From: Moorena sp. SIO3I8
GTDB lineage: Bacteria > Cyanobacteriota > Cyanobacteriia > Cyanobacteriales > Coleofasciculaceae
NCBI RefSeq assembly: GCF_010692325.1
Contig: NZ_JAAHHW010000059.1
Span: 1 to 40,042 of the forward strand
Direction of reading: 5' to 3'
DNA: 40,042 bases
Shown here: piece after piece, positions 1,468 through 25,806 of the stretch
Position numbering within the stretch: the stretch's first letter is position 1
Layout: each line of letters begins with the position of its first letter
Translations under genes and position numbers: made by a program
The notes under the pieces: generated by a model
What the model was told of the DNA's origin: nothing
Database searches by the model: none
The model's input: the letters and a program-made list of their open reading frames with translations, nothing else

Positions 1468-1484
1468 ATCCACAGGAGAAAATA

Positions 1485-2216: not shown

Positions 2217-2223
2217 TTCAATA

Positions 2224-2250
2224 GCCTGGGTCTTCCCAGGCATCTTTTGT
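2224..2250 (+). terminator. Stem-loop after the 1485 gene
   Basis: GCCTGGG-TCTT-CCCAGGC (2224-2241) followed by ATCTTTTGT. A short perfect stem with a modest T-run; either a terminator or partial attenuator between this gene and the membrane-protein genes, which start 27 bp later. Confidence 0.6.
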
Positions 2251-2276
2251 ATGTATCGAAAAGTTGGTTCAGGACA

Positions 2277-2753: not shown

Positions 2754-2757
2754 GGTT

Positions 2758-3435: not shown

Positions 3436-3446
3436 TCCCTAAAAAC

Positions 3447-3470
3447 GATGGAGTTTAATCCGACTCCATC
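3447..3470 (+). terminator. Perfect 8-bp stem-loop between membrane gene and ATPase gene
   Basis: GATGGAGT and ACTCCATC separated by 8 bases, followed by TCAATTTAAT. Terminator or attenuator; the T-run is weak, so read-through into the ATPase gene is likely. Confidence 0.55.
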
Positions 3471-3511
3471 TCAATTTAATCCAATTACATCATGGAATCA
3501 ATTATAGACCA

Positions 3512-5617: not shown

Positions 5618-5623
5618 CTAAAA

Positions 5624-6187: not shown

Positions 6188-6221
6188 GATATTCGACCAA
6201 AAATCCTAATCCCAAAAAATG

Positions 6222-6255
6222 AGCGATCGCTTCTGGTTCTAAAGGAGCGATCGCT
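6222..6255 (+). terminator. Hairpin formed by two HIP1 palindromes
   Basis: AGCGATCGCT occurs at 6222-6231 and 6246-6255; each copy is palindromic, so together they form a strong stem-loop. It lies between the membrane operon and the helicase gene and is probably the operon terminator, although no T-run follows. Confidence 0.5.
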
Positions 6256-6293
6256 ATCAAAACAGTAACTAATTAAGCACACCTGCTTAGTAA

Positions 6294-7907
6294 ATGACAA
6301 CTGATCCAGGTATTAGCATGGCACAAAGCATTGACATTCAACAACCTTTTTATCGTGACTTGAACAGTGAGATATCACTGAGAAATTATCAAGAAGAACT
6401 AGTCTTTGGTGTGTTTGAAGAGTGGAGGAGTGGTAAGCGGCGAGTGATGGTGCAGTTACCTACAGGTGGAGGCAAGACGGTCTGCATTGGAGCATTGGTT
6501 CAATACTTTGTGCAGCAGGGTCTCAAAGTCTTAGCGATCGCTCACCGCAAAGAGTTAATAACTCAACTAAGCGAAACACTCGAAAACATAACAAAATTGC
6601 CTATTGGCAAAATCAAAGCTGGCATTCCTCCAGCTCCTCAGTACAACATTCAAGTAGCTTCAATCCAGACATTAATCCGAAGGCAGCCCTTCCCTGAAGC
6701 TGACTTATTAATAATTGATGAAGCCCATCATTCTGCATCAAGATCCTATACCGATGTGATGTCTGCGTACCCAGATGCATATATTGCGGGGTTCACCGCT
6801 ACGCCCACGAGAACCGATGGCCATGGCTTCCTGCAAACCTACGATGCCCTAGTGAAGGGAGTGACGACAGCCTACTTAATCGAGCATGGATATCTCTCCC
6901 AATTCAAAGTCTACGGTGGTGTGACTATTAACACCAAAGGGCTGAAATCTTCCGTCGAGGATTATCAAAAAGGAGCACTAGAAAAACGAGCCATGGCAGT
7001 CGTTGGAGACGTTGTCCCGGCTTGGAAGAAACACGCCCTCGGGAAAAAGACCATTGTTTTTGCTGTCGGCGTCAAGCATTCTCAAGCCATTGCAGCAGCA
7101 TTTAACAACGAGGGTATTACGGCTGAGCACTTAGACGGCAAAACTTCTGCCGGAAAACGAGAAGAAGCTCTAGAACGTTTTAGGAATGGAAAAACGACTA
7201 TTTTGTCTAATTGTGGCCTTTTTGGGGAGGGAGTAGATATTCCCTCGATAGAAGCTGTCCAGATATGTCGTCCAACTGTGTCTAAGATTGTTCATTTCCA
7301 GCAAATAGGACGGGCACTAAGACCTTCCCCTGGGAAAACCCATGCCGTGATAATAGACCATAGCGAGAATTGGCGCTATCACGGGCTTCCAGACACCCAC
7401 GTCGAATGGTCTCTAGAACCAATCTCAATTCCCAACAACGAGTATGCAACCAAGTGTTCTTGCTGCGGTCACTGTTTTCTCCCTTTTCCCCATGATCTAA
7501 AAACTCCCATCAGGTTAGACAAAGACAAGGACGGGAATTTAACCCCCATTTATCACATCACTTGCCCTAGCTGTTTGACCACTTTGGAGTACATCAAAGG
7601 AGCAGGGGCGGCGATAGAACCGGACGAGGAAGCAGGTGGAGAAAAGGAACGGCTAGAAGGCTTGATGATGGAAATCGTCTTAGAGGCAAATCCTGAGTAC
7701 ATCAAGGAAATCGACCAAGCGATCGCGAAACAAACGAAAAATGGCTATAAGCGGGGGTGGGTCTTTCACCATCTATTGAAGGAATTCAGTGGTTCCCAGT
7801 TTAGTGTTGGGGATTGGCGCTATGTCGCCCATCAGTTAGGTTATGAATTGGGCTGGGCAAACTATGCCTGGAGGGATTCCCAGGTTTTTTCCAGTAGCGA
7901 ATTTTGA
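6294..7907 (+). CDS. DEAH-type superfamily 2 helicase with C-terminal zinc motif (537 aa)
   Basis: Complete SF2 core: Walker A PTGGGKT (56-62), DEAH (142-145), motif III-type TAT (168-170), a second RecA-like lobe with GEGVDIP (311-317) and motif VI QQIGRALRPSPGK (336-348). After the core comes a zinc-binding cluster (C388, C390/C391, C394, C424, C427), then a helical C-terminus. The layout is that of RAD25/SSL2-like SF2 helicases found on phages and plasmids, without a nuclease domain. It should unwind DNA using ATP. ATG 6294 gives a normal N-terminus. It has its own intergenic region, so it may be transcribed separately from the membrane operon. Confidence 0.9.
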   Translation: MTTDPGISMAQSIDIQQPFYRDLNSEISLRNYQEELVFGVFEEWRSGKRRVMVQLPTGGGKTVCIGALVQYFVQQGLKVLAIAHRKELITQLSETLENITKLPIGKIKAGIPPAPQYNIQVASIQTLIRRQPFPEADLLIIDEAHHSASRSYTDVMSAYPDAYIAGFTATPTRTDGHGFLQTYDALVKGVTTAYLIEHGYLSQFKVYGGVTINTKGLKSSVEDYQKGALEKRAMAVVGDVVPAWKKHALGKKTIVFAVGVKHSQAIAAAFNNEGITAEHLDGKTSAGKREEALERFRNGKTTILSNCGLFGEGVDIPSIEAVQICRPTVSKIVHFQQIGRALRPSPGKTHAVIIDHSENWRYHGLPDTHVEWSLEPISIPNNEYATKCSCCGHCFLPFPHDLKTPIRLDKDKDGNLTPIYHITCPSCLTTLEYIKGAGAAIEPDEEAGGEKERLEGLMMEIVLEANPEYIKEIDQAIAKQTKNGYKRGWVFHHLLKEFSGSQFSVGDWRYVAHQLGYELGWANYAWRDSQVFSSSEF

Positions 7908-7954
7908 GCATCGTCTTTTGTTATCTTTTTGCTGACGACGACGGAAAGATAAAG

Positions 7955-8005
7955 TATAATGTGAAAAGCGGGCGAGGGTAGTTCTACCAAAACCCCTCAC
8001 CCGCT
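7955..8005 (+). promoter_or_regulatory. Likely -10 box and strong leader hairpin before the giant gene
   Basis: TATAAT at 7955-7960 follows TTGCTG at about 7929-7934 with over-long spacing. About 7 bp downstream, AGCGGGCGAGGG (7967-7978) pairs with the CCCCTCACCCGCT strand ending at about 8005. The hairpin would sit at the very 5' end of the mRNA, about 45 bp before ATG 8050. Confidence 0.5.
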
Positions 8006-8049
8006 GTGATTCCAAAAGAAATCACTGTACTAATGCCCTCTATTTTAAG

Positions 8050-11000
8050 ATGAATACCACAGCGAACAACAGTGGTACAACAGTACCATCTGAACCCAAG
8101 CAACTGGTCGCGGTTAAGTGCAGAGTCCCTCTGGCTAGTATTAAGCAGTGGATTGAGTCCAAGGAAACCAAGAATTTCCTCCATGTGATCAAGCACCAAA
8201 ATGGACTGCCTCTTACGCTGACCTGTGAAGATTTTTACTACTACGATAAGGGCTGCGGTGTACTGTACTTATACGATCACTCACAACTACACCTCACCTT
8301 CAAAGCTTGGCAGGATATAGTCTACAAGGAGTTACAGTTGGGTCTTGTTCCAGTAGATTTTGGCTCCGTGACAAATGAGCAGACCATCGAATGGCTCAAG
8401 AGTGAACGCACAAAGAAAGCAATCCAGGGAATTAAAGACCGTCACGGGGAAGGTGACCGAAACTACCTAGTCGGGACTCGCAATAAAGATACTGGGAAAT
8501 TTCTACTACATCCTGAACTCATCCCTACCTTCAAGGCAGACTTTGGGATTGAGACTAAGCCTACTACTGAACCTGTTGTAACTCTTCCCACAGAAGTCAC
8601 GTCACAAAAAATTACACCGCAGCATACCACATTGGTAACATCACAAACTTCTGTGGAACCTGAAGAATCAGCTCAAGTCACTTTTCTCCCAGAAGTTCCC
8701 GATAACTACCATCTGGTCAACGAAAAGTTACTGAAAGAAGAAATCCGTAGTTTGCGTGATCGCCTCTCTTGTGGAGAAATTACAGAAGCTGAAATCATTA
8801 CAGACGTAGTATTTCGTGGAAGGTTTAAGTCTGAAATTAGCAGGAGTCACAAGGGACTACTGAAAGAGATAGCCACCTCAGGGGAAAAAGCTTATATCTT
8901 CAACAGGAAGACTCAAACCTTGTGGTGTCACCCACGGTTAGCCGAAGCATTTTTGAATCCAGTCCCTGTTGATGAAGAGGAGATTCCTTTCATCCAAACG
9001 GAAGTAATTCCTCGGGAAGAACGGGAGATGACTGAAGAAGACCTGACTGACCCGGACAATGTCGAGTTAAGGAATGCAGTCCTTGAAGCTACCGGGCTTT
9101 TGGAACCAGCAAAAAAGGAAATGGAAAGGTTGCATTCCATCGAGGAAAATTTGAAAAACCAGTTGCGTAGGGTCAATCAAAAGGATGCAGAAACAGGTGA
9201 ATCCCCCTTGTCGTTAACTGGCTCAGCAACTTTCGTTTCCGAGCCCACCTTTGTAAGGCTAAACGAGGTACTTCAACAGCACAGTCTGACTCGGGGACAG
9301 TTCCTTGATTTTGTAAAAAGTGACAAAGGGACAAAAAGTCAGTCAGCGATCGCGACAAATCTGGGAATCGAACCGAGTGATGTGGTGAACTGGATAGACC
9401 GGAACAATCCTTTTGTTTGCCAAGAGTACTGCAATACCTTCGTTGTATGGGCTGAAGCAGCAGCTAAGACCATTGAAACGACCTATTGGGAGTTAGAAGA
9501 CCTAACAGCAACCTTCTTCTTGTCAGACGGGGAATTCGAGCAGTTCAATGGCCTAAAATCATCAGTAGCGCTACGGAAGCAAATTATTGGGACTGAAGGA
9601 ATTGAAGCAGTGGTTTACTACGGTGACAAGGCCAAGCTGCACCCCGACTACCGGGATGCTTTCGTTAAATGGATCAAAGACCCATGGCCGGAAATGCCAG
9701 GCCATTACATGTTGATTCCGGGACACTTTGATATTGGTTGGGACAAGACTAGTTTCATCGACAGCCACGATGAGATATTGGAAGAGCTAGAAGAAGAAGG
9801 AGAGCCTGGGGAGACTGTCTTAGCTCGGGCAAAGGCAGATAAGCCCTGCCTCGAAACCATTCAAGAGTTCACTGAATACCTAGAAGAGGAAGCAGGCGAG
9901 ACCTTAGCGAGGTTAAACGCAGAAGAGGCATTCACTTATGGCTGGAAAGATGGTCTGTTCTGGTGTCACCCTAACCTTTACTGCCGTTTCAAAGCACGTC
10001 ACGACCAGGCCGCATCTATGAGCCTATTGGAACTAGTCGAAGAGACCAAGCAGGATTTAGATAGGTTTTTAACCTACTTTTCCACAAATGAAGCGATCGA
10101 CAAAGCTGAGGGGATAATGGCCTATTGGGGTTTGGAAAAAGTGGAGGTCTTGAATTTGTCGAATCCAGATGACCCGAGGGTTGATGGTCACTTGTTCGAT
10201 CACTTCTTGATGAAAGCCAGGAGGGAAGATAATCCACTACCTGATTACATTCCGTACCATCAAGTGCTGAAGCAGACTGGAGCGACTCCCGAACAGCTCT
10301 TTGGATTTGAGTGCAATGTTCTCGCACTGATGCCATTGAGGCATGAGGCTGAGAAATTCGGGCTGTCTCACTCTGAGCTATCCAGAAGGCAGAAGGCAAT
10401 CAACGGTGAGGATAGTGTCAAGGAGTACCATCCTGCTTTTGTCAAAGTTTTTCGACAGGTTGCTCTGGGAGAAGGCGAAACAGATTGTTCTCTTTTGAAG
10501 GTTGCACGCAAAGAAAATGAAGAAAGAACCTCTGAGTTTGCCAGAGTAAGACAGATGGCTAGTGAGGTGGTAGCATCTAAGGCAGTTGAAGCTTCAAACA
10601 CCTTGCAGGACAAGGAAACTAGGGTGGTAGCATCTGAGGCAGTTGAAACTTCAAACACCTTGCAGGACAAGGAATGCCTTATTGACCAGGAAGGTTTGAA
10701 GTACTCCCCAGTGCCAGAGGGCTGCTTCAAAACCATTGACAACCTGCACGTTAAAGCTGCCAGTAAGGACTACTTATCAGTCCGGCAAGTCTGCCAGGTT
10801 GTTAACGACCTACTGAAGGAAATGGGTAGCCCAATTCATGCCAAAGTAGGGGACGTAAATCAGGCTTTAGCTGAACTGGGGTATCAAAAAAAGGATGGGC
10901 GAAAGTGGCCTGTTCTTCCTGCTGGTCGGCACCTGCGCCGTGGAAACCAATGGCTTAATTCCGTTTGCCAAGTGCTTGCGGACAAGTTAGCTGTGGTGTA

Positions 11001-12789
11001 CTTAACGGCTAAGGAGCTACTAGAAAAAATAAAAACGTCATTAGACCGGAACGACATTACAGCCCGTATGCTTAGCAAAGCTCTTGAGGGCTTGGGTCTT
11101 CATAAGCGGATGGAATCATCAAGCGAAAAAGGGAAAAAATACAAATATTGGGGCGTGGGACAGAGTGCGATTGCTGAAGATGGCACGGTGTTAGTCAAGG
11201 CCAAAGGTAGTCGCCGGGTAGTCTATCACTCAGATTGCGTTTCACTATTGAGTAAGACTGAAAACCAATCTTACTTCCAGAAGCCTGAACGGAAACGGAG
11301 CAAGTCCCCTAAGAAAGCATCTGGGGACTGTCGTTGTCTGGACCTCATAGCCATTGGACTATTGAAAACCTCCACAGATGCCCAGGTTAAGCCCTCGCCT
11401 GTGATTAGGAGAATAGAACATGACGGAGAGTACTTTGATTTCGTTGATTACTGTCCAGAAGTTCCAGACCACTATTACATGATTCAGGGAGAGCAGCCAG
11501 GAGAGTGTGTTCTTAAATCAAGGATTCTTAGCCCATTCTGTATAGAAGATGAAGAACAACTAGACTCTCCTGATAATTTTAAGCCCTATGAAGAGGTTAC
11601 CCTAGACTTGATATATTCTCTAAAAGCCTTTGCTTATGGAGTGGATAAAAAGACAGCGATCGCTATAGAACAATCAGGGGAGAAGCTGTTTATAGAGACA
11701 GATGGAGTTACCTGGTGTCACGGGAGGATTCTTGACCGTTATGACTATAATCCAAAAGGTGAGTTGTCTCCTAAAATTTCGGTACTGCTTGAAAAATACC
11801 CTGATATAAGTGAGTCACGATTTTTGGCTTACTTGGAATCTGAGCAAGGGAAGAAAGACCTGATGAACTTAGCTGAAAAGCATGGACTGGATTCAGTAGA
11901 AATAGCTGGTTTTCCAGAAATAGAAGATGAAGAGGGATGCACTGAGAAATCAGATGAGATGATGGTTGATGAGAATTACTTCAGGGGCTTTGTAATGAAG
12001 TGCCGGAGAGAGGATAATCCTTTACCTGATTACATCTCACTCTCTGAGTTATTGACAGAATCAGGCGTCACCCTAGATGATTTTTTCATTTTTCAAAAGT
12101 CTATTTTAATGTCCTACTTTGTTATTTCTGAGATAGCGAGCCACCTGGGATTAACTGCATCAGATATGACCAAAGTAAGAGGGAAAGAAACAATCTATCA
12201 TCCTTCCTATGCTGAAGCTCTGAAAGTATGGAAAAAGAAAATGGAAGGAGCTAAAGGCAAGAATGACCAAGATTGTCCACCTAACCTAGATAACCACGAG
12301 ATTACTCCTGGTCTGACCTCTCAATTGCTTACTGAACAAGCAGTTGAGGCTTCTTCTCCTAATGGGAACAAAAACGAGCCATTAATCCCTGAGATTATTG
12401 CTGAGACTGAAGTAGAAAGTGGGAACGTGACTAACCACGAGATTACTCCTGACCCGGTAGCTGGAACGGTCACAGATCCCGCTGATAAATGGCAGTCGGT
12501 GGAATGTTGTACTTTAGGCTTTGCCGTGGAAGGGAAGCCGGAGCCAGTAACTTTTCCCTACTTCTTTTTGCCTCAAATATTGAATACCGTTCCAAAAGAT
12601 GAAATCCGACATCAGCTATATCTGGATCGACAGAATATGTCGTTAGAAGAACGGTTTACCAGAGCAATGGCCTCTATTCCCTCCAACTCGGAAGAGTATC
12701 CAGAGTACCTTGAAATGTGGACTGAACTACCTGAGCACGAAAAAGATCAGCATCTGAGAGAGGTCCATGAAGATGTTCTTCTGACTTGA
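8050..12789 (+). CDS. Giant repeat protein with recurring HP...F..W motif (1579 aa)
   Basis: No catalytic domain recognised. The protein is an array of divergent modules, each ending in an aromatic-x-HP-x-(YLF)-x(4-5)-F-x(2)-W-like signature: about residues 78-92, 153, 293, 455, 531, 638, 793, 1221 and 1382 (for example LHPDYRDAFVKW and YHPSYAEALKVW). The signature resembles the C-terminal part of KilA-N/Bro-type DNA-binding domains (W-x-HP ... A-x-W), which is inference. One long module is duplicated: about 715-805 and 1310-1400 share REDNPLPDYI and their HP ending. A 57-bp tandem duplication lies at 10567-10680. Acidic overall; no signal or membrane segment. A scaffold or multivalent DNA/protein-binding role is possible. 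Confidence 0.75.
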   Translation: MNTTANNSGTTVPSEPKQLVAVKCRVPLASIKQWIESKETKNFLHVIKHQNGLPLTLTCEDFYYYDKGCGVLYLYDHSQLHLTFKAWQDIVYKELQLGLVPVDFGSVTNEQTIEWLKSERTKKAIQGIKDRHGEGDRNYLVGTRNKDTGKFLLHPELIPTFKADFGIETKPTTEPVVTLPTEVTSQKITPQHTTLVTSQTSVEPEESAQVTFLPEVPDNYHLVNEKLLKEEIRSLRDRLSCGEITEAEIITDVVFRGRFKSEISRSHKGLLKEIATSGEKAYIFNRKTQTLWCHPRLAEAFLNPVPVDEEEIPFIQTEVIPREEREMTEEDLTDPDNVELRNAVLEATGLLEPAKKEMERLHSIEENLKNQLRRVNQKDAETGESPLSLTGSATFVSEPTFVRLNEVLQQHSLTRGQFLDFVKSDKGTKSQSAIATNLGIEPSDVVNWIDRNNPFVCQEYCNTFVVWAEAAAKTIETTYWELEDLTATFFLSDGEFEQFNGLKSSVALRKQIIGTEGIEAVVYYGDKAKLHPDYRDAFVKWIKDPWPEMPGHYMLIPGHFDIGWDKTSFIDSHDEILEELEEEGEPGETVLARAKADKPCLETIQEFTEYLEEEAGETLARLNAEEAFTYGWKDGLFWCHPNLYCRFKARHDQAASMSLLELVEETKQDLDRFLTYFSTNEAIDKAEGIMAYWGLEKVEVLNLSNPDDPRVDGHLFDHFLMKARREDNPLPDYIPYHQVLKQTGATPEQLFGFECNVLALMPLRHEAEKFGLSHSELSRRQKAINGEDSVKEYHPAFVKVFRQVALGEGETDCSLLKVARKENEERTSEFARVRQMASEVVASKAVEASNTLQDKETRVVASEAVETSNTLQDKECLIDQEGLKYSPVPEGCFKTIDNLHVKAASKDYLSVRQVCQVVNDLLKEMGSPIHAKVGDVNQALAELGYQKKDGRKWPVLPAGRHLRRGNQWLNSVCQVLADKLAVVYLTAKELLEKIKTSLDRNDITARMLSKALEGLGLHKRMESSSEKGKKYKYWGVGQSAIAEDGTVLVKAKGSRRVVYHSDCVSLLSKTENQSYFQKPERKRSKSPKKASGDCRCLDLIAIGLLKTSTDAQVKPSPVIRRIEHDGEYFDFVDYCPEVPDHYYMIQGEQPGECVLKSRILSPFCIEDEEQLDSPDNFKPYEEVTLDLIYSLKAFAYGVDKKTAIAIEQSGEKLFIETDGVTWCHGRILDRYDYNPKGELSPKISVLLEKYPDISESRFLAYLESEQGKKDLMNLAEKHGLDSVEIAGFPEIEDEEGCTEKSDEMMVDENYFRGFVMKCRREDNPLPDYISLSELLTESGVTLDDFFIFQKSILMSYFVISEIASHLGLTASDMTKVRGKETIYHPSYAEALKVWKKKMEGAKGKNDQDCPPNLDNHEITPGLTSQLLTEQAVEASSPNGNKNEPLIPEIIAETEVESGNVTNHEITPDPVAGTVTDPADKWQSVECCTLGFAVEGKPEPVTFPYFFLPQILNTVPKDEIRHQLYLDRQNMSLEERFTRAMASIPSNSEEYPEYLEMWTELPEHEKDQHLREVHEDVLLT
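10567..10680 (+). repeat. 57-bp tandem duplication inside the giant gene
   Basis: Two consecutive 57-bp units starting GTGGTAGCATCT, with a few substitutions, encode VVASKAVEASNTLQDKE and VVASEAVETSNTLQDKE. They fall in a linker between modules. Confidence 0.85.
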
Positions 12790-13998: not shown

Positions 13999-14452
13999 AT
14001 ACGGCTAATCCAAAATCAACAACGCACCTAATCTTGCCCAAAACCAAAGGACATATCAAGTGCAGCACTTTCTGGCAACAAATGAACTACAGAAAAGGTT
14101 TTCGCCGTACCATTCCAAGGCTATGCTGCCACTGGATTAGAGGTACTTTTTTCGAGAAAATGTCGTACCCGCCGATTCCGAGTGATTGACAGAGAGCGGG
14201 GATTTCCCAAAAGTTATGCCACAACCCAACGAACCCCCAAACGGTGGGAGTTCCAGCCGTTGAATTCCGTGCCACAAGGATGTCACAACGAATTGGTTTT
14301 GGAGTGATTCCTCGTAACTCCTACCATTACTGGGATACAGGGTTTTTATTATTAATCATAAAAACTCCTTTAGAGCCTGAAGCCCAGTGTTTGATGGGAG
14401 TAACAGCCGTTTTGGCAGAGGGTGTGTCTACTATACACACCCTTTCCACTTC
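13999..14452. other. Non-coding interval
   Basis: No supported gene; short frames on both strands lack start signals. GGGTGTGT and ACACACCC (14420-14442) form a perfect hairpin followed by a short T/C stretch, just before block A1. Confidence 0.5.
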
Positions 14453-14641
14453 TTGATGCTGCGATCGCACCCAAAGAAGAACCCACCCGTTCCTGCGCCT
14501 CTGACGGCTTTGGATTTCGGATGGGTACTATAGATTAAATAGTAAATTCGTAACTCCTAGAGCCTAACCTGCGCCCGGTACTGGCAGCGACTGAGTAACC
14601 GAAGGAGCGTACAGGACGCCGTAGGCTCTATCTTGGGGAGC
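14453..14641. repeat. Block A, copy 1: structured element directly 3' of the 230-aa membrane gene
   Basis: Homologous to 17863-18047. Both contain a first stem (ACCCACCCG with CGGATGGGT, 14481-14526) and a larger domain closed by AGAGCCTA/TAGGCTCT (14559-14629), with the shared string GGAGCGTACAGGACGCCG. It ends within a few bases of the stop codon of a leftward gene in each copy, so it would form the 3' untranslated region: a terminator, structured RNA or recombination site. Confidence 0.8.
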
Positions 14642-14643
14642 GA

Positions 14644-15336
14644 TTATTCGTTTTTAGGAAAAAAAGAATAAATGCTTAGGTCAAATAAAAAGCTTTTTGC
14701 ATTTTTAAATACGTTAGACCAACAAGGTCTGTCTTTATAAGCTTTAATAAAACTAAGTTGATTCCATAAAAAAAGTATTATAACGCTGCAACTTGTTAAT
14801 ATAGTAGGTTCTGTACTGTTATCAATTAGTGTTTCTAAATCTTTAACAAATAAACCTATTAAAGTAAAAAGGATAAATAAGTGGAGTATTTCAGTTGTAT
14901 TTTTAATAAGTTCTATATTTTTTAAGTTAAAAAATAAATTTTGTAATATAGTTAATAAACACATACTTATGATAATAATAGTAGATGCACATAGTTGACA
15001 AACTAAAAGAGTACCCGCCACTACAAATACATAACTACCTATAGCCCCCATAGTATAACTACTGCCTCCATTTAACATTATGGGCGAAATAGTAACTCCT
15101 AATATTATTCCTTTAAACATATGGTTAGCAATAAGTAAACCTAAGTATTCATTTGATTTAGAAAATACATTTTTCAAGAAGAATAAAAGTGCTAAAAAAA
15201 CACTAATAGCAGGGAATCCTAAAATTGCAAAACCTGTATTAACTGGGAGTACTACAAAACCTATTCCAAAAGCAATAAGAAATACAGCAAAATAAAATGA
15301 CAATTGTAAATTGACTATATAACAAGTAAGTTTCAT
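14644..15336 (-). CDS. AT-rich polytopic membrane protein (230 aa), lies between blocks A1 and B1
   Basis: About six to seven hydrophobic segments spread over the full length, with short loops; C-terminus cytoplasmic and mildly basic. No transporter or enzyme family recognised. Very AT-rich and Ile/Leu/Phe-rich, unlike the plasmid-core genes, suggesting recent acquisition. ATG 15336 has no clear ribosome-binding site. Its surroundings (A at the 3' side, B at the 5' side) match those of the poly-Thr peptide gene at 18049, so the two genes occupy equivalent slots. A second polytopic protein of similar size and composition lies at 16934. An immunity, export or sensing role alongside the peptide is conceivable but unsupported by motifs. 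Confidence 0.75.
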   Translation of the reverse strand: MKLTCYIVNLQLSFYFAVFLIAFGIGFVVLPVNTGFAILGFPAISVFLALLFFLKNVFSKSNEYLGLLIANHMFKGIILGVTISPIMLNGGSSYTMGAIGSYVFVVAGTLLVCQLCASTIIIISMCLLTILQNLFFNLKNIELIKNTTEILHLFILFTLIGLFVKDLETLIDNSTEPTILTSCSVIILFLWNQLSFIKAYKDRPCWSNVFKNAKSFLFDLSIYSFFPKNE

Positions 15337-15481
15337 AATTATGGTTTTAAAGTATCTAAATTTGTGATTAGTTTAAAGTGATTAGTGACTTGTGATCTTA
15401 CCGGCTTTATCCTTTTTAATGCAATAAAGATCCAAATCGGTTTCAGACGTTACGTTAGTAAAGGAATTACTAGTGAGAAAG

Positions 15482-15643
15482 AAGTCCTGTTCTCACAACT
15501 AAAGCCATTGATTGGTTGCTCGGGGATAAACTGATGTAGTTAAGTCTATTTAATGTCGCAGTGCTATAGGTTGATATAGGTATACAAAGCTGTGTTCCAC
15601 CCCAAAGTAATTAAGTTGACTTGGGGCACTCCAACTGGAGTGC
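15482..15643. repeat. Block B, copy 1: upstream element with two variable hairpins
   Basis: Homologous to 18528-18685 (shared AAAGCCATTGATT, TTTAA-GTCGCAGT and AATTAAGTTGACTTGG). It contains two stem-loops whose sequences differ from those of copy 2 but which sit at the same places: GGTATACA/TGTGTTCC (15579-15598) and GCACTCC/GGAGTGC (15626-15643), the latter right after GTTGACTTGG. Confidence 0.75.
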
Positions 15644-15747
15644 AACGAGGTAAGCAAGCAAGTGTGCGTGCTTCTAATTAACGGTGGATTTCTGATTACC
15701 TGCGAAGATACTCAAATCCCCACTGGTCACAAAAAAAAGACGCCCTG

Positions 15748-16230
15748 TCAACGGAGGAATGGGAAGAGATTAGCAGCTAACGCAAGGATTAGATGCATCA
15801 TTACAAAACAAAAAAATATAACGCCGAAAAATGCCGCAATAATTAATAAAGCGGACTCTTCTTTTGCGGCGGGCAATTGATACTGCGTGGCTTCTCGGGG
15901 AGGGGCTCTCCTGTATGCCTCGTCGTACTGATTCATTTTGTCTTTTACTTGCCAAAAAGTGGGAGGATCAAACTCAAACCATTCTTCGCCACCACCTCGC
16001 AACTGGTATTCAGCAAAAAAACGATGCAGCTTCTTCTCTACCTTGTGGGCTTGACTCGATCGGATTTGATGGTAAACATGGGCATAGTTTCCACTGAAGC
16101 CGGTCTGAAGTTGCTTAGCTCTGATCCTTGGGTCGTTCTTGGTCACCCCAATCTTAAAATGGCCAATGGCCTTGTTTGTTCTAGCGTCTTTCTTCCCGAT
16201 CAGGTAGACGTACTTGAATTCTTCATTCAT
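15748..16230 (-). CDS. GIY-YIG (T5orf172/MUG113-like) nuclease with C-terminal membrane anchor (160 aa)
   Basis: Residues 7-90 show the T5orf172-type GIY-YIG pattern: YVYLIG (7-12), FKIGVTK (25-31), a conserved-looking E65 in KVEKKLH, and the EWFEF ending (83-87). The family cuts DNA with a single metal ion. Residues 127-157 are strongly hydrophobic, so the nuclease domain would be tethered to the membrane, which is uncommon for this family. ATG 16230 has a GGGGAT-like ribosome-binding site. The gene sits between blocks B1 and C1, at a point where the homologous second locus has no gene (its B and C are adjacent), which suggests insertion or loss as a unit. Confidence 0.85.
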   Translation of the reverse strand: MNEEFKYVYLIGKKDARTNKAIGHFKIGVTKNDPRIRAKQLQTGFSGNYAHVYHQIRSSQAHKVEKKLHRFFAEYQLRGGGEEWFEFDPPTFWQVKDKMNQYDEAYRRAPPREATQYQLPAAKEESALLIIAAFFGVIFFCFVMMHLILALAANLFPFLR

Positions 16231-16336
16231 TATCCCCAGGATTTAATGGAGTCGTTTATTTTCCAAAGTATATTACCGCTATATTAATTTATCTACTGCC
16301 CAGAAAGTAGTTAAGACTCCCTAATAACCTAGAGCA

Positions 16337-16702
16337 TTAAGTTGATTTTGGCACTCAAGTCAGAGTGCCCTCCTTAGACATTAAGTTGACTTGGACATGA
16401 TAACTTACGCCTATTTTTCTGTTATTTCCTAACAGGAACTAGAAAGATGATGAAAAGTATTCTTAGTTCCTGTAATCGGAATTATTGGTATTTCCTTTTT
16501 GCCTCTAATTCCCCCTAAAATTCACTTTCTATTACTTTTGATTTTGTTGGCAAAAATAACAGGAAGTTGAAAACTGACTGTAATGGGAAGTAGTTCCGCT
16601 GTCGGAATTCTGTCAACGGAACAGGGTTGAGTCCTGGAATTAGAATTGGGTCGTGTGTCGGTGACATGCCCAAGTACATGAAGTTGACAGATATGTTTAC
16701 AC
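16337..16702. repeat. Block C, copy 1: GTTGAC-foot hairpins and conserved tail
   Basis: Homologous to 18699-18972. TTAAGTTGATTTT is followed by the hairpin GGCACTC/GAGTGCC (16350-16369). TTAAGTTGACTTGG recurs at 16381. AGGAACTA/TAGTTCCT (16434-16471) is a third hairpin. The tail (about 16586-16702) shares GGAACAGGGTTGA, CTGGAATTAGAA and CCCAAGTACATGAAGTTGACAG with copy 2. Confidence 0.75.
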
Positions 16703-16933
16703 ACCTGCTAAGTACAGGACAAAAACTTGAAAAGGTAGACAGGAAAAGGGTTTCATGGAAAAAACAATTCCCGTTATTAATAAAACACTAGGCGTATAAA
16801 TATAAAATCCCCAAAACCCTAAAATTAAGATGTTTCACCTAACTTCAATATCATGACTTATATCACTTCTGTAATCTGTAAACTGAGAAATATTTGATAA
16901 GTTTAACAATATCAGATAAAATCTAGTGGTTTT
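16703..16933. other. AT-rich non-coding interval
   Basis: No gene supported. It lies downstream of the leftward membrane gene; no clear terminator is visible. Confidence 0.4.
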
Positions 16934-17551
16934 TTAGTGAAAAAATTCTGGTAAATCTTTGTGAACAATAAAATTCCTAGAGTATTTAAATATATTCTGC
17001 ATAGTAGGTTTTACATGTAAACCTATAAATAAGGTATATTGATTTACAAGAAAAATTCCAAAAATAACAAAATTTATACTATCACTATATCCATCAGCTT
17101 GATTCCTAGCGATCTGACCCCCAAGTCCAAAAATCATACTTATTAGTGCCGATAATAGCTGAATCAGTACAAGAGTAATATGCCTTGTTTTGCTATTATT
17201 AATTAATAAAAATAAAACAACATTTAATATTAAAATTAGAAAAAATTCAAATAAATGAAGTACAAAAATAGAAGCAATAATATATACTGTTCTTTCTACT
17301 AAATGAGGTTTTATACTTAATAAACCACCTAATAACATCCCGGTTGAAATTGTATGAAGTATCAAAGAAATTAAAAACTTACCTTGTTGATAAGAATTAT
17401 GTGCTCCTATAAGACTTGGAAAAAATAGTATAGGGAAAAATATAAAATTACTACCTGCACCAATAACTACAAAGATAAAATTACTTGCAAATACTAATAA
17501 TATAAATATGTTAAAAATTAACACATATTTAACAGGATTTAATTCATTCAT
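16934..17551 (-). CDS. AT-rich polytopic membrane protein (205 aa)
   Basis: Six or so hydrophobic segments (for example VLIFNIFILLVFASNFIFVVIGA near the start and FVLHLFEFFLILILNVVLFLLI in the middle). ATG 17551 is preferred over an in-frame TTG at 17560; no strong ribosome-binding site. No family recognised. It is leftward, downstream of the poly-Thr peptide gene and block A2, and could be co-transcribed with them or expressed from its own promoter near the palindrome at 17624-17637. It resembles the 230-aa protein at 14644 in size, hydropathy and base composition, but alignment by eye does not prove homology. Confidence 0.7.
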   Translation of the reverse strand: MNELNPVKYVLIFNIFILLVFASNFIFVVIGAGSNFIFFPILFFPSLIGAHNSYQQGKFLISLILHTISTGMLLGGLLSIKPHLVERTVYIIASIFVLHLFEFFLILILNVVLFLLINNSKTRHITLVLIQLLSALISMIFGLGGQIARNQADGYSDSINFVIFGIFLVNQYTLFIGLHVKPTMQNIFKYSRNFIVHKDLPEFFH

Positions 17552-17623
17552 ATTTATCAAAACTATTTAAAATAAATTAACATAATAACAACTAACTAAG
17601 AGTATCACTGTCATTAAACAATT

Positions 17624-17637
17624 GGTAATTAATTACC
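17624..17637. promoter_or_regulatory. Perfect 14-bp palindrome upstream of the 205-aa membrane gene
   Basis: GGTAATTAATTACC, about 70 bp upstream of ATG 17551 on the leftward strand: a plausible operator. The rest of 17552-17862 is AT-rich without a supported gene. Confidence 0.5.
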
Positions 17638-17862
17638 GTTATAAATTTTAAGCTATCATTCACAATCTTCTAAGTCAATAAAAAATATAATACTAAAAAC
17701 TAAACTTTCTTTGCGTGACTCTCTACACTGAACGTACTCGGAAACGTATCCCTGTATTAGCCAAGCGCGTAGGTAGCTAGGGTTTTAATTTGCCTATCTC
17801 TCCACCCTAGTCATGTGTGAGGTTTTTATCATTTTGGATAAAAACTCCTGGAGTTTCGGGAG

Positions 17863-18047
17863 CTGATGCTGCGATCGCACCAAAAAACAACCCACCCGTT
17901 CCTGTGCCTCTAACGACCTAGGAGTTCGGATGGGTTACGAAATAATGACTAACTTTTTATACACGACTACAGCCTATCCTACGCCCAGTACTGGGAGCGC
18001 CTGGGTACCGAAGGAGCGTACAGGACGCCGCAGGCTCTATTTTGGGG
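17863..18047. repeat. Block A, copy 2: structured element directly 3' of the poly-Thr peptide gene
   Basis: Same layout as 14453-14641: first stem AACCCACCCG/CGGATGGGTT (17889-17936), then a domain closed by AGCCT/AGGCT (17971-18036) with CCCAGTACTGGG and GGAGCGTACAGGACGCCG inside. It begins 1-2 bp past the peptide's stop codon in the leftward direction. Confidence 0.8.
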
Positions 18048-18048
18048 T

Positions 18049-18219
18049 TTATTTTATTCCGGTTCCCCTACAAGTAGTAGTTGTTGTAGTAGTTGTAGTA
18101 GTACCACCTGTAGTAGTAGTTGTAGTAGTTGTTGTATTACCACCTATAATCTTTTCCAAGCCTAGGTTTATAGTTTCAAGTTTACTTACTTTAAGATCAG
18201 TTACCATTATCTGTGCCAT
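18049..18219 (-). CDS. Poly-threonine peptide with double-glycine leader (56 aa)
   Basis: A leftward 57-codon gene with a strong ribosome-binding site (AAGGAG, 8 bp before ATG 18219). The first 27 residues form an amphipathic leader ending LEKIIGG, fitting the double-glycine consensus (hydrophobic at -7 and -4, GG at -2/-1). The rest is N, nine Thr, GG, ten Thr, then CRGTGIK with one cysteine. The Thr tracts use ACT and ACA irregularly, so protein-level selection rather than simple repeat slippage is plausible. Double-glycine leaders are cut by ABC exporters with a C39 peptidase, or by RiPP machinery; neither is present in the window, so processing would need factors elsewhere. Likely an exported or modified peptide (bacteriocin, signal or adhesive); exact role unknown. 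Confidence 0.75.
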   Translation of the reverse strand: MAQIMVTDLKVSKLETINLGLEKIIGGNTTTTTTTTTGGTTTTTTTTTTCRGTGIK

Positions 18220-18234
18220 TTTACTTTCTCCTTT
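18212..18234 (-). promoter_or_regulatory. Strong ribosome-binding site of the poly-Thr peptide
   Basis: On the leftward strand AAAAGGAGAAAGTAAA precedes ATG 18219. It is one of the best Shine-Dalgarno matches in this AT-rich region and decides the start. Confidence 0.75.
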
Positions 18235-18527
18235 TGTCTTTTAATGTTGAAGTTATTCTGTTGTATTTTTATTCACAACATTAGTTTATGGTATAAGCAC
18301 CTATATCTATAAATACCTGTTATTAATACTTGAAACCTATGTATTGTAGTAATTTACATGATTTCATAGCTATTTTATACAGGTAATTAAATACCAGTAA
18401 TAACTATATCAATTTTTTGAAAGTAGGATTATAAAAGTTTCTTAATGATTTTGTGAAATAACTTTATAATTAGTTTAAATCTACTAAGTAGTTCCAGAAA
18501 AAAGAAATATTTGGTAGTTAAAAAAGT
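18220..18527. other. AT-rich leader interval of the poly-Thr peptide gene
   Basis: Apart from the ribosome-binding site there is no supported gene; the promoter is presumably here or in block B2. Confidence 0.4.
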
Positions 18528-18685
18528 GATGTCCTCACAAGTAAAGCCATTGATTAGTTACTAGGGCATAAATTGCTGTAGTTAAGTTAATTTAACGTCG
18601 CAGTACATTCAGTTGATATTGGTACACCGATTGGTGTACCACCCCAAGGTAATTAAGTTGACTTGGGTGAGAAAAATGTCTCACC
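18528..18685. repeat. Block B, copy 2
   Basis: Matches 15482-15643. Hairpins GGTACACC/GGTGTACC (18621-18640) and GGTGAG/CTCACC (18666-18685) occupy the same positions as the differently sequenced hairpins of copy 1; the second again follows TTAAGTTGACTTGG. Confidence 0.75.
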
Positions 18686-18698
18686 TACCCTAGTACTG

Positions 18699-18972
18699 TT
18701 AAGTTGACTAAGGTATTGTTTAATACATCAATTATTTGTTATCTTGTGATTTTAAGTGACAAGATAAAGAAAAGTATTGTTAACACCGGAAATGGGCGTT
18801 ATTGGTACTTCAGTTGACCTGTTTACACAATAGTTTTACACAATAGTTTTGACTCTGGTGGGAAGTAGTCTCATTGTCGAAATTCCGAGAATGGAACAGG
18901 GTTGATTCCTGGAATTAGAACTAGGTCGTGTGCCTGCGAAATCCCCAAGTACATGAAGTTGACAGGTCTGAG
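18699..18972. repeat. Block C, copy 2
   Basis: Matches 16337-16702. TTAAGTTGAC (18699-18708) is followed by GTATT/AATAC (18713-18726), then TTATCTTGT/ACAAGATAA (18739-18767). The conserved tail runs to CCCAAGTACATGAAGTTGACAG. Here C follows B2 directly, with no gene between. Confidence 0.75.
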
Positions 18973-18999
18973 TACGCCATCAAAATGGATTTTTATTGC

Positions 19000-19977: not shown

Positions 19978-22900
19978 TTGGTCGTCAGTGCCATTTACGG
20001 TTTAGGAGGTATCGGTAAATCAACTCTCGCTGCGGCTTTAGCTCACGATCCAGAAGTGCAGAGGCATTTTCCCGACGGTGTACTGTGGGCTACTTTAGGA
20101 CAAACACCCGACCTACTTCCATTTCTCAGCACCTGGATACAAGCGCTCGGAGATTACGACTTTAAACTAACCACCTCAGAAACCGCCTCGCTCCATTTAA
20201 GGACTTTGTTACATAACAAAGCCATTCTCCTAGTCGTAGATGATGTTTGGAATTCAGACCATGTAGAACCATTCCGAGTTGGGGGTTCTAACTGTAGGGT
20301 ATTGGTAACTACTCGGGAAGCAGTAGTCAAAGGAGCAGTCCGCTTCGACCTAGATGTGATGACAAAAGAGCAAGCTTCAAAGCTGCTAACCCATCCATGG
20401 AAAGGTCAACTAACAAATGTTCAGAAACATCAGGCAGAAGCTTTAGCAAAGACCGTCGGCTACTTACCCTTGGCTCTGGAATTAGCCGCTGCTCAAGTGA
20501 AGGATGGCGTGTCTTGGAGCGAGTTACTCTCGGATTTGCAAGCAGAAATTGCCCGCTTGGAAGTTTTAGATTTACTAGGTGCAGATGAAATACACAGTGA
20601 GGAAAAACGTAAGGACTATAGTCTACTGGCTTCATTTAACCTCAGTCTGCGGCGATTACCCTCCGAAAGGCGAGAGGAATTTGTCTGGTTAGGCGTGTTG
20701 CCCGAAGATGTGACTATTACTGAGAAAATGGCAGTCACGCTGTGGAAGTGTAATCAATCCAGGGCAAAGACAACTCTGCATTATTTGCGTTCTAAGGCGT
20801 TATTGTTACCAGGTGTATCTAGTGATGAGACTACTAGCTATCGCTTACACGATTTACTACATGATTTAGCTCGTAACTTATTAACTAATCCCACAACACC
20901 GGAAGAAGGACAGTTACCAGGTTTTGGACTAACACTACTATCAGCTCACCAAACTCTATTACAACACTATCGAGCAAAAACTAAAAATGGCTTGTGGCAT
21001 ACTCTTCCCGATGATGGCTACATTCATAATTATTTGACATGGCATCTGCTCAAAGCCGAATGGAATGATGAGGTGCATCAGCTATTAAAAGAAGAAACTG
21101 AAAAAGGGGAAAATGGTTGGTATCAAGCTTGCGAGCGTTTAGGAAAAATAGCTATATATATTGTGGATATAGCTAGAGCATGGCAGCTAGCAGAAGAAGT
21201 TTTCTCAGAAAACCCGTCACAAGCAATTGCTTGGCAATGTCGTTATGTTCTCATAATCTCCTCTCTCAAGAGTTTAGCAGCGAACATTCCGGCTACATTA
21301 ATAGCAACACTGGTAAAAAAGAAGATATGGACTCCAGCCTTGGGGTTAACTTATGGGAAGCAAGGAAAAAATCCAGCAAGACAAGCAGAAGTCTTGAGGG
21401 AGTTAGCTCCTCATCTGCCTAAAAGTCTACTACCACAAGCACTGGCAGAAGCACGGAACCTTTTGGATGATGGCGCTCATAGCTACCGAACGACAGCACT
21501 GAGCGGGCTTGTTCCTTATCTGCCTAAAACTTTACTACAAGAAGCCCTAACATCGGCACGGAGCATTCGGGATGATTGGAAACGAGTGAAAATACTGAGC
21601 GGGCTTGTCCCTTATTTACCTGAAATCCTGTCAGAAGCCCTGGAAGCAGCACGGAGTATTACGTGTGGGATATATCGAGCGAACGCGCTGATATGCCTAG
21701 CACCCAATCTATCTGAAATTATACTACAAGAAGTCCTAGCAGCGGCACAGAGTATTCCCCATGCGAACTGCCGAGCGGAAGCACTCAGGGAGCTTGTCCC
21801 TTATTTACCTGAAATTCTACCAGAAGCCCTGAAAGCAGCACAGAGTATTTCGTATGTGAGGCACCGAGCAAAAGCATTGAGAAAGCTTGTCCCTTATTTA
21901 CCTGAAATCCTGCCAGAAGCCTTGACAGCGGCACGGAGCTTTAGGGATGAGAGCTTCCAAGCGGAAGCACTGACGGAGCTTGTCCCTTATTCACCTGAAA
22001 TCCTGCTAGAAGCCTTGACAGCAGTACGAAACATTCCGGATGAGTCAGCTCGCGCATCTGCATTGAGCAGGCTTGCCCCCCATCTGCCTGAAATTCTACC
22101 AGAAGCCCTGGCAGCAGTATGGAACATTCAGGAGGAGAATTACCGAGCTAGAACACTATACAAACTAATTCCCCATCTACCTCAAAATCTACTACTAGAA
22201 GTACTAGAAGCCTTACAGAACATTTGGGATGAGTCAGCTCGCGCATCTGCATTGAGCAGGCTAGCACCCCATCTGCCTGAAATTTTACTACCAGAAGCCC
22301 TGGAAGCAGCACGGAGTATTCCAAATGAGTCAGCTCGCGCATCTGCACTGAGGGAGCTTGCCTCCCGTCTGCCTGAAATTCTACCAGAAGCCCTGGCAGC
22401 AGCACGGAGCATTAATGATGATAGCTACCGAGTGGAAGCACTGAGCAGGCTTGCCCTCCATCTGCCTGAAATTTTACCAGAAGCCCTGGAAGCAGTACGG
22501 AGTATACAGGGTACTGAGAGTGAGTTGGTATCAGCTCGCGTATCCGCACTGAGCAGGCTAGCACCCCATCTGCCTGAAATTTTACTACCAAAAGCCCTGG
22601 AAGCAGCACGGAGTATTTCGTATGATCCATCTCGCGTATCTGCACTGAGCGGGCTGGTACCCTATCTGCCTGAAATTCTACCAGAAGCCCTGGAAGCAGC
22701 ACGGAGTATTTCGTATGATCCATCTCGCGTATCTGCACTGAGCGGGCTGGTACCCTATCTGCCTGAAATTCTACCAGAAGCCCTGGAAGCAGCACGAAGT
22801 ATTACGTATGATCCATCTCGCGTATCTGCACTGAGCGGGCTGGTACCCTATCTGCCTGAAATTCTACCAGAAGCCCTGGAAGCAGCACGGAGCATTCATA

Positions 22901-23259
22901 ATGAGAGCGACCGAGCGGAAGCACTGAGTAGGCTTGCCCACCATCTATCTGATGAAATACTATTAAAAACCCTAGCAACGGTACGGAGCATTCAGCATAA
23001 GGGGTACCGAGCCTCATCAGTAATGATGCCATTACCTCATCTGCCAACTATTATGAAATCTGTGTATGAGCAACTAAATCCTAATTCTGTTGACTATAAT
23101 ATCTGGAAGGAAATCCTGCATTTTTTAGCAGATAACGATCGTCAAGTAGTATTAGAAAGTATCCCGAAGTTGAGTTCTATTATCATTGCTTTAGGTGGTT
23201 CAAACGCTTTTGCAGAAATAGCTCATGCTATTCAAGATGTAGGGCAATGGTGGCCATGA
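19978..23259 (+). CDS. NB-ARC STAND NTPase with about 18 helical repeats (NLR-like)
   Basis: NB-ARC core: P-loop GLGGIGKST (8-16 from TTG 19978), Walker B LLVVDDVW (about 84-91), LPLAL motif near 162, then winged-helix-like and helical regions. Residues about 470-1030 hold some 17-18 repeats of 26-31 residues (SRVSALSGLVPYLPEILPE type), an alpha-solenoid sensor; three at 22611-22889 are almost identical at DNA level. Such proteins couple ligand sensing to oligomerisation, as in bacterial NLR-type antiphage defence or signalling. The frame is open back to 19759 and encodes the conserved lead-in (VPYLPSYFVERSEV) before the P-loop, yet no ATG, GTG or TTG exists there before TTG 19978; the natural start is probably ATG 19306 through the TAG. 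Confidence 0.85.
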   Translation: MVVSAIYGLGGIGKSTLAAALAHDPEVQRHFPDGVLWATLGQTPDLLPFLSTWIQALGDYDFKLTTSETASLHLRTLLHNKAILLVVDDVWNSDHVEPFRVGGSNCRVLVTTREAVVKGAVRFDLDVMTKEQASKLLTHPWKGQLTNVQKHQAEALAKTVGYLPLALELAAAQVKDGVSWSELLSDLQAEIARLEVLDLLGADEIHSEEKRKDYSLLASFNLSLRRLPSERREEFVWLGVLPEDVTITEKMAVTLWKCNQSRAKTTLHYLRSKALLLPGVSSDETTSYRLHDLLHDLARNLLTNPTTPEEGQLPGFGLTLLSAHQTLLQHYRAKTKNGLWHTLPDDGYIHNYLTWHLLKAEWNDEVHQLLKEETEKGENGWYQACERLGKIAIYIVDIARAWQLAEEVFSENPSQAIAWQCRYVLIISSLKSLAANIPATLIATLVKKKIWTPALGLTYGKQGKNPARQAEVLRELAPHLPKSLLPQALAEARNLLDDGAHSYRTTALSGLVPYLPKTLLQEALTSARSIRDDWKRVKILSGLVPYLPEILSEALEAARSITCGIYRANALICLAPNLSEIILQEVLAAAQSIPHANCRAEALRELVPYLPEILPEALKAAQSISYVRHRAKALRKLVPYLPEILPEALTAARSFRDESFQAEALTELVPYSPEILLEALTAVRNIPDESARASALSRLAPHLPEILPEALAAVWNIQEENYRARTLYKLIPHLPQNLLLEVLEALQNIWDESARASALSRLAPHLPEILLPEALEAARSIPNESARASALRELASRLPEILPEALAAARSINDDSYRVEALSRLALHLPEILPEALEAVRSIQGTESELVSARVSALSRLAPHLPEILLPKALEAARSISYDPSRVSALSGLVPYLPEILPEALEAARSISYDPSRVSALSGLVPYLPEILPEALEAARSITYDPSRVSALSGLVPYLPEILPEALEAARSIHNESDRAEALSRLAHHLSDEILLKTLATVRSIQHKGYRASSVMMPLPHLPTIMKSVYEQLNPNSVDYNIWKEILHFLADNDRQVVLESIPKLSSIIIALGGSNAFAEIAHAIQDVGQWWP
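22611..22889 (+). repeat. Three near-identical 93-bp tandem repeats in the STAND gene
   Basis: Units start at 22611, 22704 and 22797 with an exact 93-bp period and differ at only a few bases. Each encodes one 31-residue solenoid repeat; the older repeats around them are well diverged. Confidence 0.9.
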
Positions 23260-24964: not shown

Positions 24965-25134
24965 CAAAATTATTTCCTCTAAAATCAAGTCAATAATTAT
25001 GTGACTAGTAGTTGTTGAATTTGAGCTTTCCAAGGTTCGGATAATACTACTTAACGATTGCAAAAAAAATATATTTGACCAGGGCACACCAAAGTTGTTC
25101 AATAAATAGGCAGGGGTGTATTGAGGCGTGGGGC

Positions 25135-25806
25135 ATGAAAATTGACCGCCATGGCCAGGCAAAGATTTTAACAGCAGAGGAAATCCAGCTGCTGTTTAAC
25201 GAAGGGGCAACCCTTAACCCGCCACGAGACCGGGCGCTGTTTGCTGTCATGCTCTACACTGCCTGTCGGGTCAATGAAGCGGTGACCTTAAGAATAAGGG
25301 ATGTTTACGATCGCAAAGGGTCTGTGCGTCCCGTTGTCCTATTCAGGAAAGGGAACACCAAAGGCAAGCTTGCCACCCGAACCATCCCGGTACTAGAAGA
25401 TCTGCGGTTTCACTTAACGGACTACCACCCTCCAAAATGGGGAAACTATCTATTCCCCGGAAGGCATGGGAAAGGGCACATCACCTCAGATGCCGCCAGC
25501 TGGATCCTTCGGGAGGCTTGCAAGCGTGTGGATATAGAAGGGGTCAGTACTCATAGTTTCCGCAGGACAGCACTCACCCAGTTAAGTAACGCAGGAATCC
25601 CCCTGCGGGTAATCCAGGAAATATCCGGGCATCGGACATTGGATGAGTTGTACAAGTACTTGGAGGTGCGACCCGAGCAAGTAAGGGGGGCTATCAGTGC
25701 CTTGTCAATGCTTAGTCCGGTTGAATCCGCCGAGCCGACTGAACCTGTGCCGGATTACACCGTTAAACCGGCATTGCCCGATGTAACTAATACTTCTGAA
25801 CCATAA
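25135..25806 (+). CDS. Short tyrosine recombinase (integrase), catalytic domain only (224 aa)
   Basis: Catalytic set complete: R45 (TACRVNEAV), a beta-hairpin lysine (K76 or K78), H140-x-x-R143 (HSFR), H166 (SGHR) and a nucleophile in ELYKYLEV (Y173 or Y175). There is no N-terminal core-binding (SAM-like) domain, so it is about 100 residues shorter than XerC/XerD; an internal fragment of a relative lies at 23362. ATG 25135 is chosen over an upstream in-frame ATG at 25075 because homology begins near it. The C-terminus carries a Pro/Glu-rich tail. Paired TTTCCGGAAA sites 100-200 bp downstream and at 19000-19111 are candidate substrates. Confidence 0.9.
   Translation: MKIDRHGQAKILTAEEIQLLFNEGATLNPPRDRALFAVMLYTACRVNEAVTLRIRDVYDRKGSVRPVVLFRKGNTKGKLATRTIPVLEDLRFHLTDYHPPKWGNYLFPGRHGKGHITSDAASWILREACKRVDIEGVSTHSFRRTALTQLSNAGIPLRVIQEISGHRTLDELYKYLEVRPEQVRGAISALSMLSPVESAEPTEPVPDYTVKPALPDVTNTSEP

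Follow-up and report, generated by a model that had tools for sequence, protein, structure and literature searches.

The window, that is, the whole stretch of DNA analysed here, comprised bases 1-40042 of contig C466 in a genome of 8.0 Mb and 510 contigs (hereafter the source genome), which by its gene content looks cyanobacterial. A gene for a poly-threonine (poly-Thr) peptide was located at 18049..18219, the coordinates given by the original prediction, and lies on the minus strand, which that prediction had left unsaid. The gene and the features around it are as follows.

18049..18219, minus: poly-Thr precursor gene, 56 codons plus stop
18139..18219, minus: leader, 27 codons, ending LEKIIGG; a homologous leader is known in genome G003
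18052..18138, minus: core, 29 codons, N T9 GG T10 CRGTGIK
18074..18145, minus: two 36-base tandem units, each coding for GG-x-T9
18228..18232, minus: ribosome-binding site AGGAG, 8 bases upstream of the ATG of the poly-Thr gene
18428..18457, minus: promoter-like site TTCACA-18-TATAAT, 11/12 consensus match
17821..18047, no strand: element A', whose end lies 1 base away from the stop codon of the poly-Thr gene
18520..18667, no strand: element B', 81% like B at 15478-15625
18850..18965, no strand: element C', 83% like C at 16575-16690
16934..17560, minus: 208-aa hydrophobic, polytopic-looking protein, with no convincing relative elsewhere
14644..15336, minus: 230-aa hydrophobic protein, apparently a distant paralogue of the 208-aa protein

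From leader to tail, the peptide reads MAQIMVTDLKVSKLETINLGLEKIIGG NTTTTTTTTT GG TTTTTTTTTT CRGTGIK. The translation confirmed the predicted 27-residue leader ending LEKIIGG, followed by a core made almost purely of Thr, and the ribosome-binding site (AGGAG, 8 bases before the ATG) is a good one. The count of 19 Thr in two blocks split by GG, with a single Cys, also stood, to which the tail CRGTGIK adds one more Thr; Thr accounts for 20 of the 29 core residues. Because each 36-base unit codes for GG-x-T9, the second GG of the peptide was regarded as a copy of the end of the leader. Little weight was given to the promoter-like site, since two such sites were counted by the scan against a shuffle mean of 7.0. 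A Pfam search up to E 1 gave no family for the peptide; its three NCBIfam matches lay far below cut-off and were taken as chance.

The core was searched for with two patterns, both of which are blind to other layouts of a Thr-rich core: hydrophobic-GG-any-T8 gave 49 stretches in a collection of 84,980 species (5 of them lie in short frames, and inspection by eye showed no leader peptide), and GG-any-T6 was found in 19 of 388 genomes of the order, the present gene being the only leader peptide by eye. On the basis of these two scans the poly-Thr core is unmatched by the patterns used, and within them the supposed absence of any other GG-leader poly-Thr peptide held. Relatives of the whole peptide were not confirmed in genome contigs, plasmids or viral contigs (a collection from which records of the source genome were possibly excluded), and the order's 387 other genomes gave no orthologue of the whole peptide. 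A whole-peptide search of the source genome gave no second copy either; with neither an orthologue elsewhere nor a second copy, the poly-Thr core shows no conservation. A limited literature search returned, among the matches listed, no poly-Thr RiPP core in print.

Surroundings of the gene in the window

By Pfam, no exporter, HlyD or known RiPP enzyme was detected among 29 of the 42 other window ORFs of at least 90 aa, and HlyD, C39/ABC and cluster proteins gave no tblastn match to the window. Nothing in the window exceeded the Rfam gathering score. The AT-rich polytopic membrane protein neighbours of the original prediction were recovered: the neighbouring DNA has GC 0.304 and 0.336 in two 1-kb windows, and the two hydrophobic genes have GC 0.244 and 0.263. 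The 230-aa and 208-aa proteins matched each other at their C-ends with 28% over 39 aa (E 2e-4, in a single comparison). Up to E 1 neither gave a match to Pfam or NCBIfam, and searches of plasmids and viral contigs yielded no relatives. For the 208-aa protein, no PADLOC match was obtained and the best other match in 147 genomes (E 0.003) was in a frame with two stops; for a profile of the 208-aa and 230-aa proteins together, the best other match in 340 genomes (E 0.0011) was in a frame with three stops. An assignment of the two proteins to known families of immunity or transport was rejected, as there was neither a Pfam/NCBIfam match nor a convincing relative; they could be putative immunity or transport partners.

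The elements A, B and C, all within 14341-18975, are repeated at 81-83% and 2.3-3.4 kb apart, with unlike genes between the copies. Within A', 17864-18047 is 81% like 14454-14638 and 17821-17849 is 83% like 14341-14369, both of the latter lying downstream of the 230-aa gene. The 230-aa gene is placed between B and A and the poly-Thr gene between B' and A', and the 208-aa protein follows A'. Both copies of A, the only two occurrences of this element in the genome, lie within a few bases of a stop codon, of the 230-aa gene and of the poly-Thr gene, respectively. An integron-like cassette was rejected, since no convincing attC was seen by eye and the fold was no better than that of shuffles (z -0.08).

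Farther along the plus strand, an NB-ARC protein (Pfam; 19978-23259) preceded by a 150-aa protein carries many 93-base repeats that correspond to 31-aa units, e.g. ALSGLVPYLPEILPEALEAARSI, one repeat array matching at 95% at the DNA level; these repeats are recently amplified, in a bacterial NLR-like protein. Eight ORFs on the plus strand occupy 973-12789, with a 701-aa protein, a ResIII helicase (537 aa) and a 1579-aa protein in that order. Only the helicase, among the six of these eight ORFs submitted to PADLOC, matched, and it did so with broad helicase/restriction models; the 1579-aa and 701-aa proteins had no Pfam family over cut-off. A tyrosine recombinase (25075-25806, plus) and a DDE transposase with DUF4277 (37542-39167, plus) give the region an accessory, mobile-looking character.

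The leader and its relatives

The consensus of double-glycine leaders has hydrophobic residues at -4 and -7, and the present leader, as read from the translation, ends in GG with I at -4 and L at -7. The original prediction had proposed a search for homologous leaders with other cores, and one such leader was found. With the whole peptide as query, 99 of the 388 order genomes had a match at E <= 1, the source genome among them, and the bulk of these matches must be due to chance. They were judged from the table, and a match in G003, a genome of the same genus, with E 0.284, was singled out for a closer look because its contig was already known for double-glycine precursors. The match (C400:24009, equal to L179:4010-4186) is a precursor of 58 residues with the leader MANIQIKQLQITESELIDVNSSKIFGG followed by the core CTVTAENGTTIEVPDAQCVAIIRELVGLKPK, and AAAGGA lies upstream. 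A second match in a precursor-bearing contig, G093:C85:7972, had E 0.46 and was aligned over residues 6 to 49.

The source and G003 leaders both have 27 residues, were aligned without gaps over 27/27 positions with GG at 26-27, and share 10 identities and 17 positives (BLOSUM62 score 52). This score was reached by 0 of 33,394 decoy ORFs, by 3 of 100,000 shuffles of the G003 leader and by 1 of 100,000 shuffles of the source leader, and the next-best score was 25 in a set of 6,119 distinct N-termini, taken from 136 loci with the 49 loci of the poly-Thr scan of genome contigs left aside. The match was self-selected, yet the score margin (52 vs 25) is wide. At the DNA level, the 81 leader bases are identical at 13, 19 and 11 of 27 codons for codon positions 1, 2 and 3, respectively. 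The core of the G003 precursor is not poly-Thr, and that precursor, unlike the present one, sits in a set of genes for an exporter and HopA1/LxmK-like proteins. A leader-only search of 57 genomes returned the gene itself and two weak matches, one (E 0.88) with an internal stop and the other (E 1.54) in an 807-residue frame, which were taken as chance.

Two leader families of cyanobacterial double-glycine precursors were compared with the present leader. On a profile of 20 ISDLNHLE leaders it scored 0.1 bits, the best decoy scoring 10.1 bits and 3,626 of 55,395 decoys scoring at least 0, by which these leaders were ruled out as the parent family; a three-row profile with the present leader as one row did not list the poly-Thr gene in the source genome at E <= 10. 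The second query was the consensus MA.I.ISDL.P.GSELF, which we take to be that of a known leader type. It gave matches in 35 of 147 genomes, so that such a leader family does exist, and at E <= 0.1 none of its precursors was found in the source genome. The cores of this family vary widely, and two (L148, L150) contain much Thr, Ile and Val.

The present leader shares the start (MA.I.V.DL) and the end of the MA.I.ISDL family. On a profile of the N- and C-ends of 42 leaders, which excludes the present leader and whose members had passed a self-written N-terminal filter, it scored 15.1 bits and ranked first among 656 window ORFs. Of 33,239 decoys, 5 did as well; none did among the 2,625 decoys that carry a Shine-Dalgarno (SD) sequence. 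However, all peptides of the family scored higher (22.2-42.0 bits), 176 of 20,000 shuffled leaders (0.9%) reached 15.1 bits, and the end preferred by the profile in the present peptide is the second GG. From the top rank in the window, set against these three points, the leader appears to be a distant or convergent cousin of the family rather than a member.

C39 exporters and candidate modification genes

A genome-wide search for C39 exporters, also proposed in the original prediction, gave five Pfam matches at four places in the source genome: two on contig C480, one on C501 and one split on C44. Uninterrupted C39 proteins number three (two on C480, one on C501). On C44 the C39 domain is split into two matches about 1.3 kb apart (L023, G000:C44 5618-9665), and transposase-like frames were seen by eye between the exporter halves. 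This exporter is 95.6% identical to that of G003 over the ABC part and 91.3% over the C39-bearing part, and the G003 orthologue is open over 935 aa. The C480 exporters adjoin HlyD-like proteins and precursors with ISDLNHLE leaders; export of the poly-Thr peptide by them is doubtful, since its leader misfits these leaders.

In G003 the precursor is flanked on one side by a C39-ABC exporter (L186 12027-14834), HlyD and PpiC, and on the other by two TENA-like proteins, an LLM oxidoreductase, two HopA1 proteins and an LxmK-like protein. The HopA1 matches exceeded the Pfam cut-off, and the LxmK-like protein scored 32.9 bits against NF038156, far under the 315 set as cut-off for that model. The available part of PMC9486802 describes HopA1 and LxmK relatives as lyase and kinase of class V lanthipeptides. 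HopA1 and LxmK gave no tblastn match in four stretches (three contigs) of the source genome or in the window. HopA1 and LxmK-like genes (tblastn) adjoin GG-leader precursors in G003, G093, G011 and G012 (L179, L182-L185); these sets are cyanobacterial class V-like clusters, and two of them have Thr/Ile-rich cores.

LanM was found near MA.I.ISDL-family precursors in G001 and G002. In both genomes (L180, L181) LanM synthetases stand among precursors of the MANI...GAELFNDSESFM type, several with Cys in the core; one in G001 was recognised by TIGR03897 and two more by tblastn. Five precursors of relatives had no NCBIfam or Pfam model over cut-off, and the two Thr/Ile-rich ones among them matched lanthipeptide/lantibiotic models at E 0.028-0.13, below cut-off. 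The LanC-like domain PF05147 had zero matches in the source genome (99.48% complete); as controls, this model matched in 1 of 14 control genomes and does detect the LanM of G001, which is of the same genus. A LanC-type lanthipeptide (classes I-IV) was rejected on this result. As no LanC-like domain was found in the source genome, the suggested cyclisation with the single Cys is unlikely in the form of a lanthionine ring made by a LanC-type enzyme.

Assignment of the gene and rival explanations

The gene consists of an ORF with a ribosome-binding site, its leader has an in-register relative within an exporter and class V-like gene set, and C39 exporters are present in the source genome. We favour, with moderate confidence, the reading that it is a lone precursor of a cyanobacterial double-glycine (C39-exported) peptide system; it is probably a displaced precursor with an extreme core, exported through another C39 exporter. 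The variable cores in genomes of the same family, two of them Thr/Ile-rich, also count towards a double-glycine precursor. What weakens this reading is the E value of 0.284 and the self-selection of the G003 match, the low scores of the leader on both family profiles, the LxmK-like match below cut-off in G003, the lack of an exporter or enzyme among the window ORFs covered, and the lack of a second copy or orthologue in the genomes searched. The precursor would be translated, its leader would deliver it to a C39 ABC exporter, and the exporter would cut after IIGG and release the 29-residue core. The C44 exporter is the likely ancestral partner, now interrupted, so that one of the three uninterrupted C39 proteins (C480, C501) would serve in trans. 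The core would have grown through duplication of the 36-base GG-x-T9 unit. Thr has a high beta propensity, and our leading guess at a function is an extracellular peptide in which a GG turn links two beta-strands of Thr that might form a hairpin or a stack, with the single Cys free to pair two peptides; by analogy, it may serve as a sticky or matrix-like material and not as a lantibiotic with rings.

Very little credence is given to the view that the ORF arose by chance where a trinucleotide-like repeat lies in non-coding DNA, or that the overlapping plus-strand ORF (17930-18244, encoding poly-Val) is the true gene. The tract is open in several frames, the plus-strand ORF has AGGAG ahead of its ATG, and the A/T variation of the tract falls at the third codon position whether the tract is read as Thr or, from the opposite strand, as Val; for this last reason the variation was dropped as proof of Thr coding. 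On the other hand, the leader lies almost entirely outside the 36-base repeat and has its in-register relative, and the first part of the plus-strand ORF is duplicated at 14454-14638 in a copy with 8/7/11 differences at the three codon positions and frameshifting indels. Since such differences resemble non-coding DNA, the poly-Val ORF was rejected as a real gene. The repeat tract alone is no proof of a gene, and the minus strand is favoured by the leader relative together with the non-coding-like duplicate of the plus-strand ORF. A leader-shaped pattern, which was designed with the poly-Thr peptide in view, had one SD-bearing occurrence in the window and was found in 6 of 55,783 ORFs from 100 Markov-resampled windows (4.0 Mb), or 2 of 4,392 ORFs with SD, which, with the profile score above, puts the leader beyond what chance would give.

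The splitting of the likely partner exporter makes a serious rival, even if an unlikely one, of a stranded and decaying remnant. On this view the precursor sits in an accessory region, has no working exporter, and carries a core that has turned into a runaway repeat. Such a remnant would fit the lack of a whole-peptide orthologue in the 387 other genomes, the tandem repeat of the core and the duplicated surroundings without convincing relatives; it sits less well with the intact start, SD sequence, leader and frame, and with the three uninterrupted C39 proteins that remain. We also hold it improbable that a class V-type LanK/LanY pair (LxmK/HopA1) acts in trans to phosphorylate and dehydrate the Thr residues, which would give runs of dehydrobutyrine and maybe a thioether or disulfide at the Cys. 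Pointing that way is the G003 contig, where the homologous leader is accompanied by two HopA1 proteins (over the Pfam cut-off) and one that is LxmK-like (below the NCBIfam cut-off). The available part of PMC9486802 points the same way: the cacaoidin enzymes CaoK/CaoY act on a single precursor and dehydrate eight of its Ser/Thr, and one group among the candidate class V precursors is made up of cyanobacterial sequences only. Against it stand the absence of HopA1/LxmK matches from the source-genome stretches and the window, the absence of an MA.I.ISDL precursor from the source genome at the threshold given above, and the split exporter locus that matches the G003 one. The extreme form, in which all 19 block Thr would be dehydrated in trans by LanK/LanY and an exported poly-dehydrobutyrine would form two rigid strands with a GG turn and a Cys cap, is highly doubtful.

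Reading the gene as a lone double-glycine precursor allows comparison with known systems. Two cyanobacterial families of double-glycine precursors have very diverse cores rich in Gly, Cys, Ser and Thr, according to the available part of PMC3140520 (Wang, Fewer and Sivonen 2011). The present gene resembles these C39-cluster precursors in being short and in having a GG leader, C39 exporters in the genome and a highly individual core. It differs from them in that no exporter was found among the ORFs covered in the 40-kb window, in having Thr at 20/29 core positions, and in a leader that misfits ISDLNHLE and has no clear fit to MA.I.ISDL; unlinked precursors remain compatible with the broad C39-exported double-glycine kind. 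The original prediction had placed the peptide outside the precursor types it could name, which stood for the unmatched poly-Thr core and not for the leader, which goes with cyanobacterial double-glycine precursors. The precursors L148 (G011) and L150 (G012), from genomes of the same family, also combine a GG leader with short, beta-prone, Thr-rich cores, in contrast to which their Thr is mixed with Ile/Val, their leaders are of the full MA.I.ISNL.P.G.DLF form, and LxmK-like and HopA1 genes lie nearby. Graspetides (the microviridin kind) use Asp/Glu partners in the core, and this class was rejected, as the present core contains neither.

The double-glycine peptides EbfG1-4 of Synechococcus elongatus are required for biofilm, and their efficient secretion requires the C39 protein PteB (PMC4997328, in the part available); expression of EbfG1-3 in E. 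coli gave an amyloid phenotype (PMC9981879, likewise). They are small GG-leader peptides with C39-dependent secretion and an extracellular place, which for the poly-Thr peptide would hold by analogy alone. The tail contains RGTG and in this is like the RG(S/T)GR motif of PatS/PatX in the available part of PMC7761841; the motif alone was compared, RGTGIK lacks its last Arg, and a PatS/PatX signal was rejected since the pentapeptide is unmet.

The present case illustrates how far the core of a cyanobacterial exported peptide can move towards repeating one residue with its leader still recognisable, and the poly-Thr core offers a simple homopolymer substrate for work on exporter proteases and class V dehydratases with repetitive cores. 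The computed monoisotopic mass of the unmodified 29-residue core is 2881.38 Da, from which 18.01 would be subtracted per dehydration, giving an exact mass prediction.
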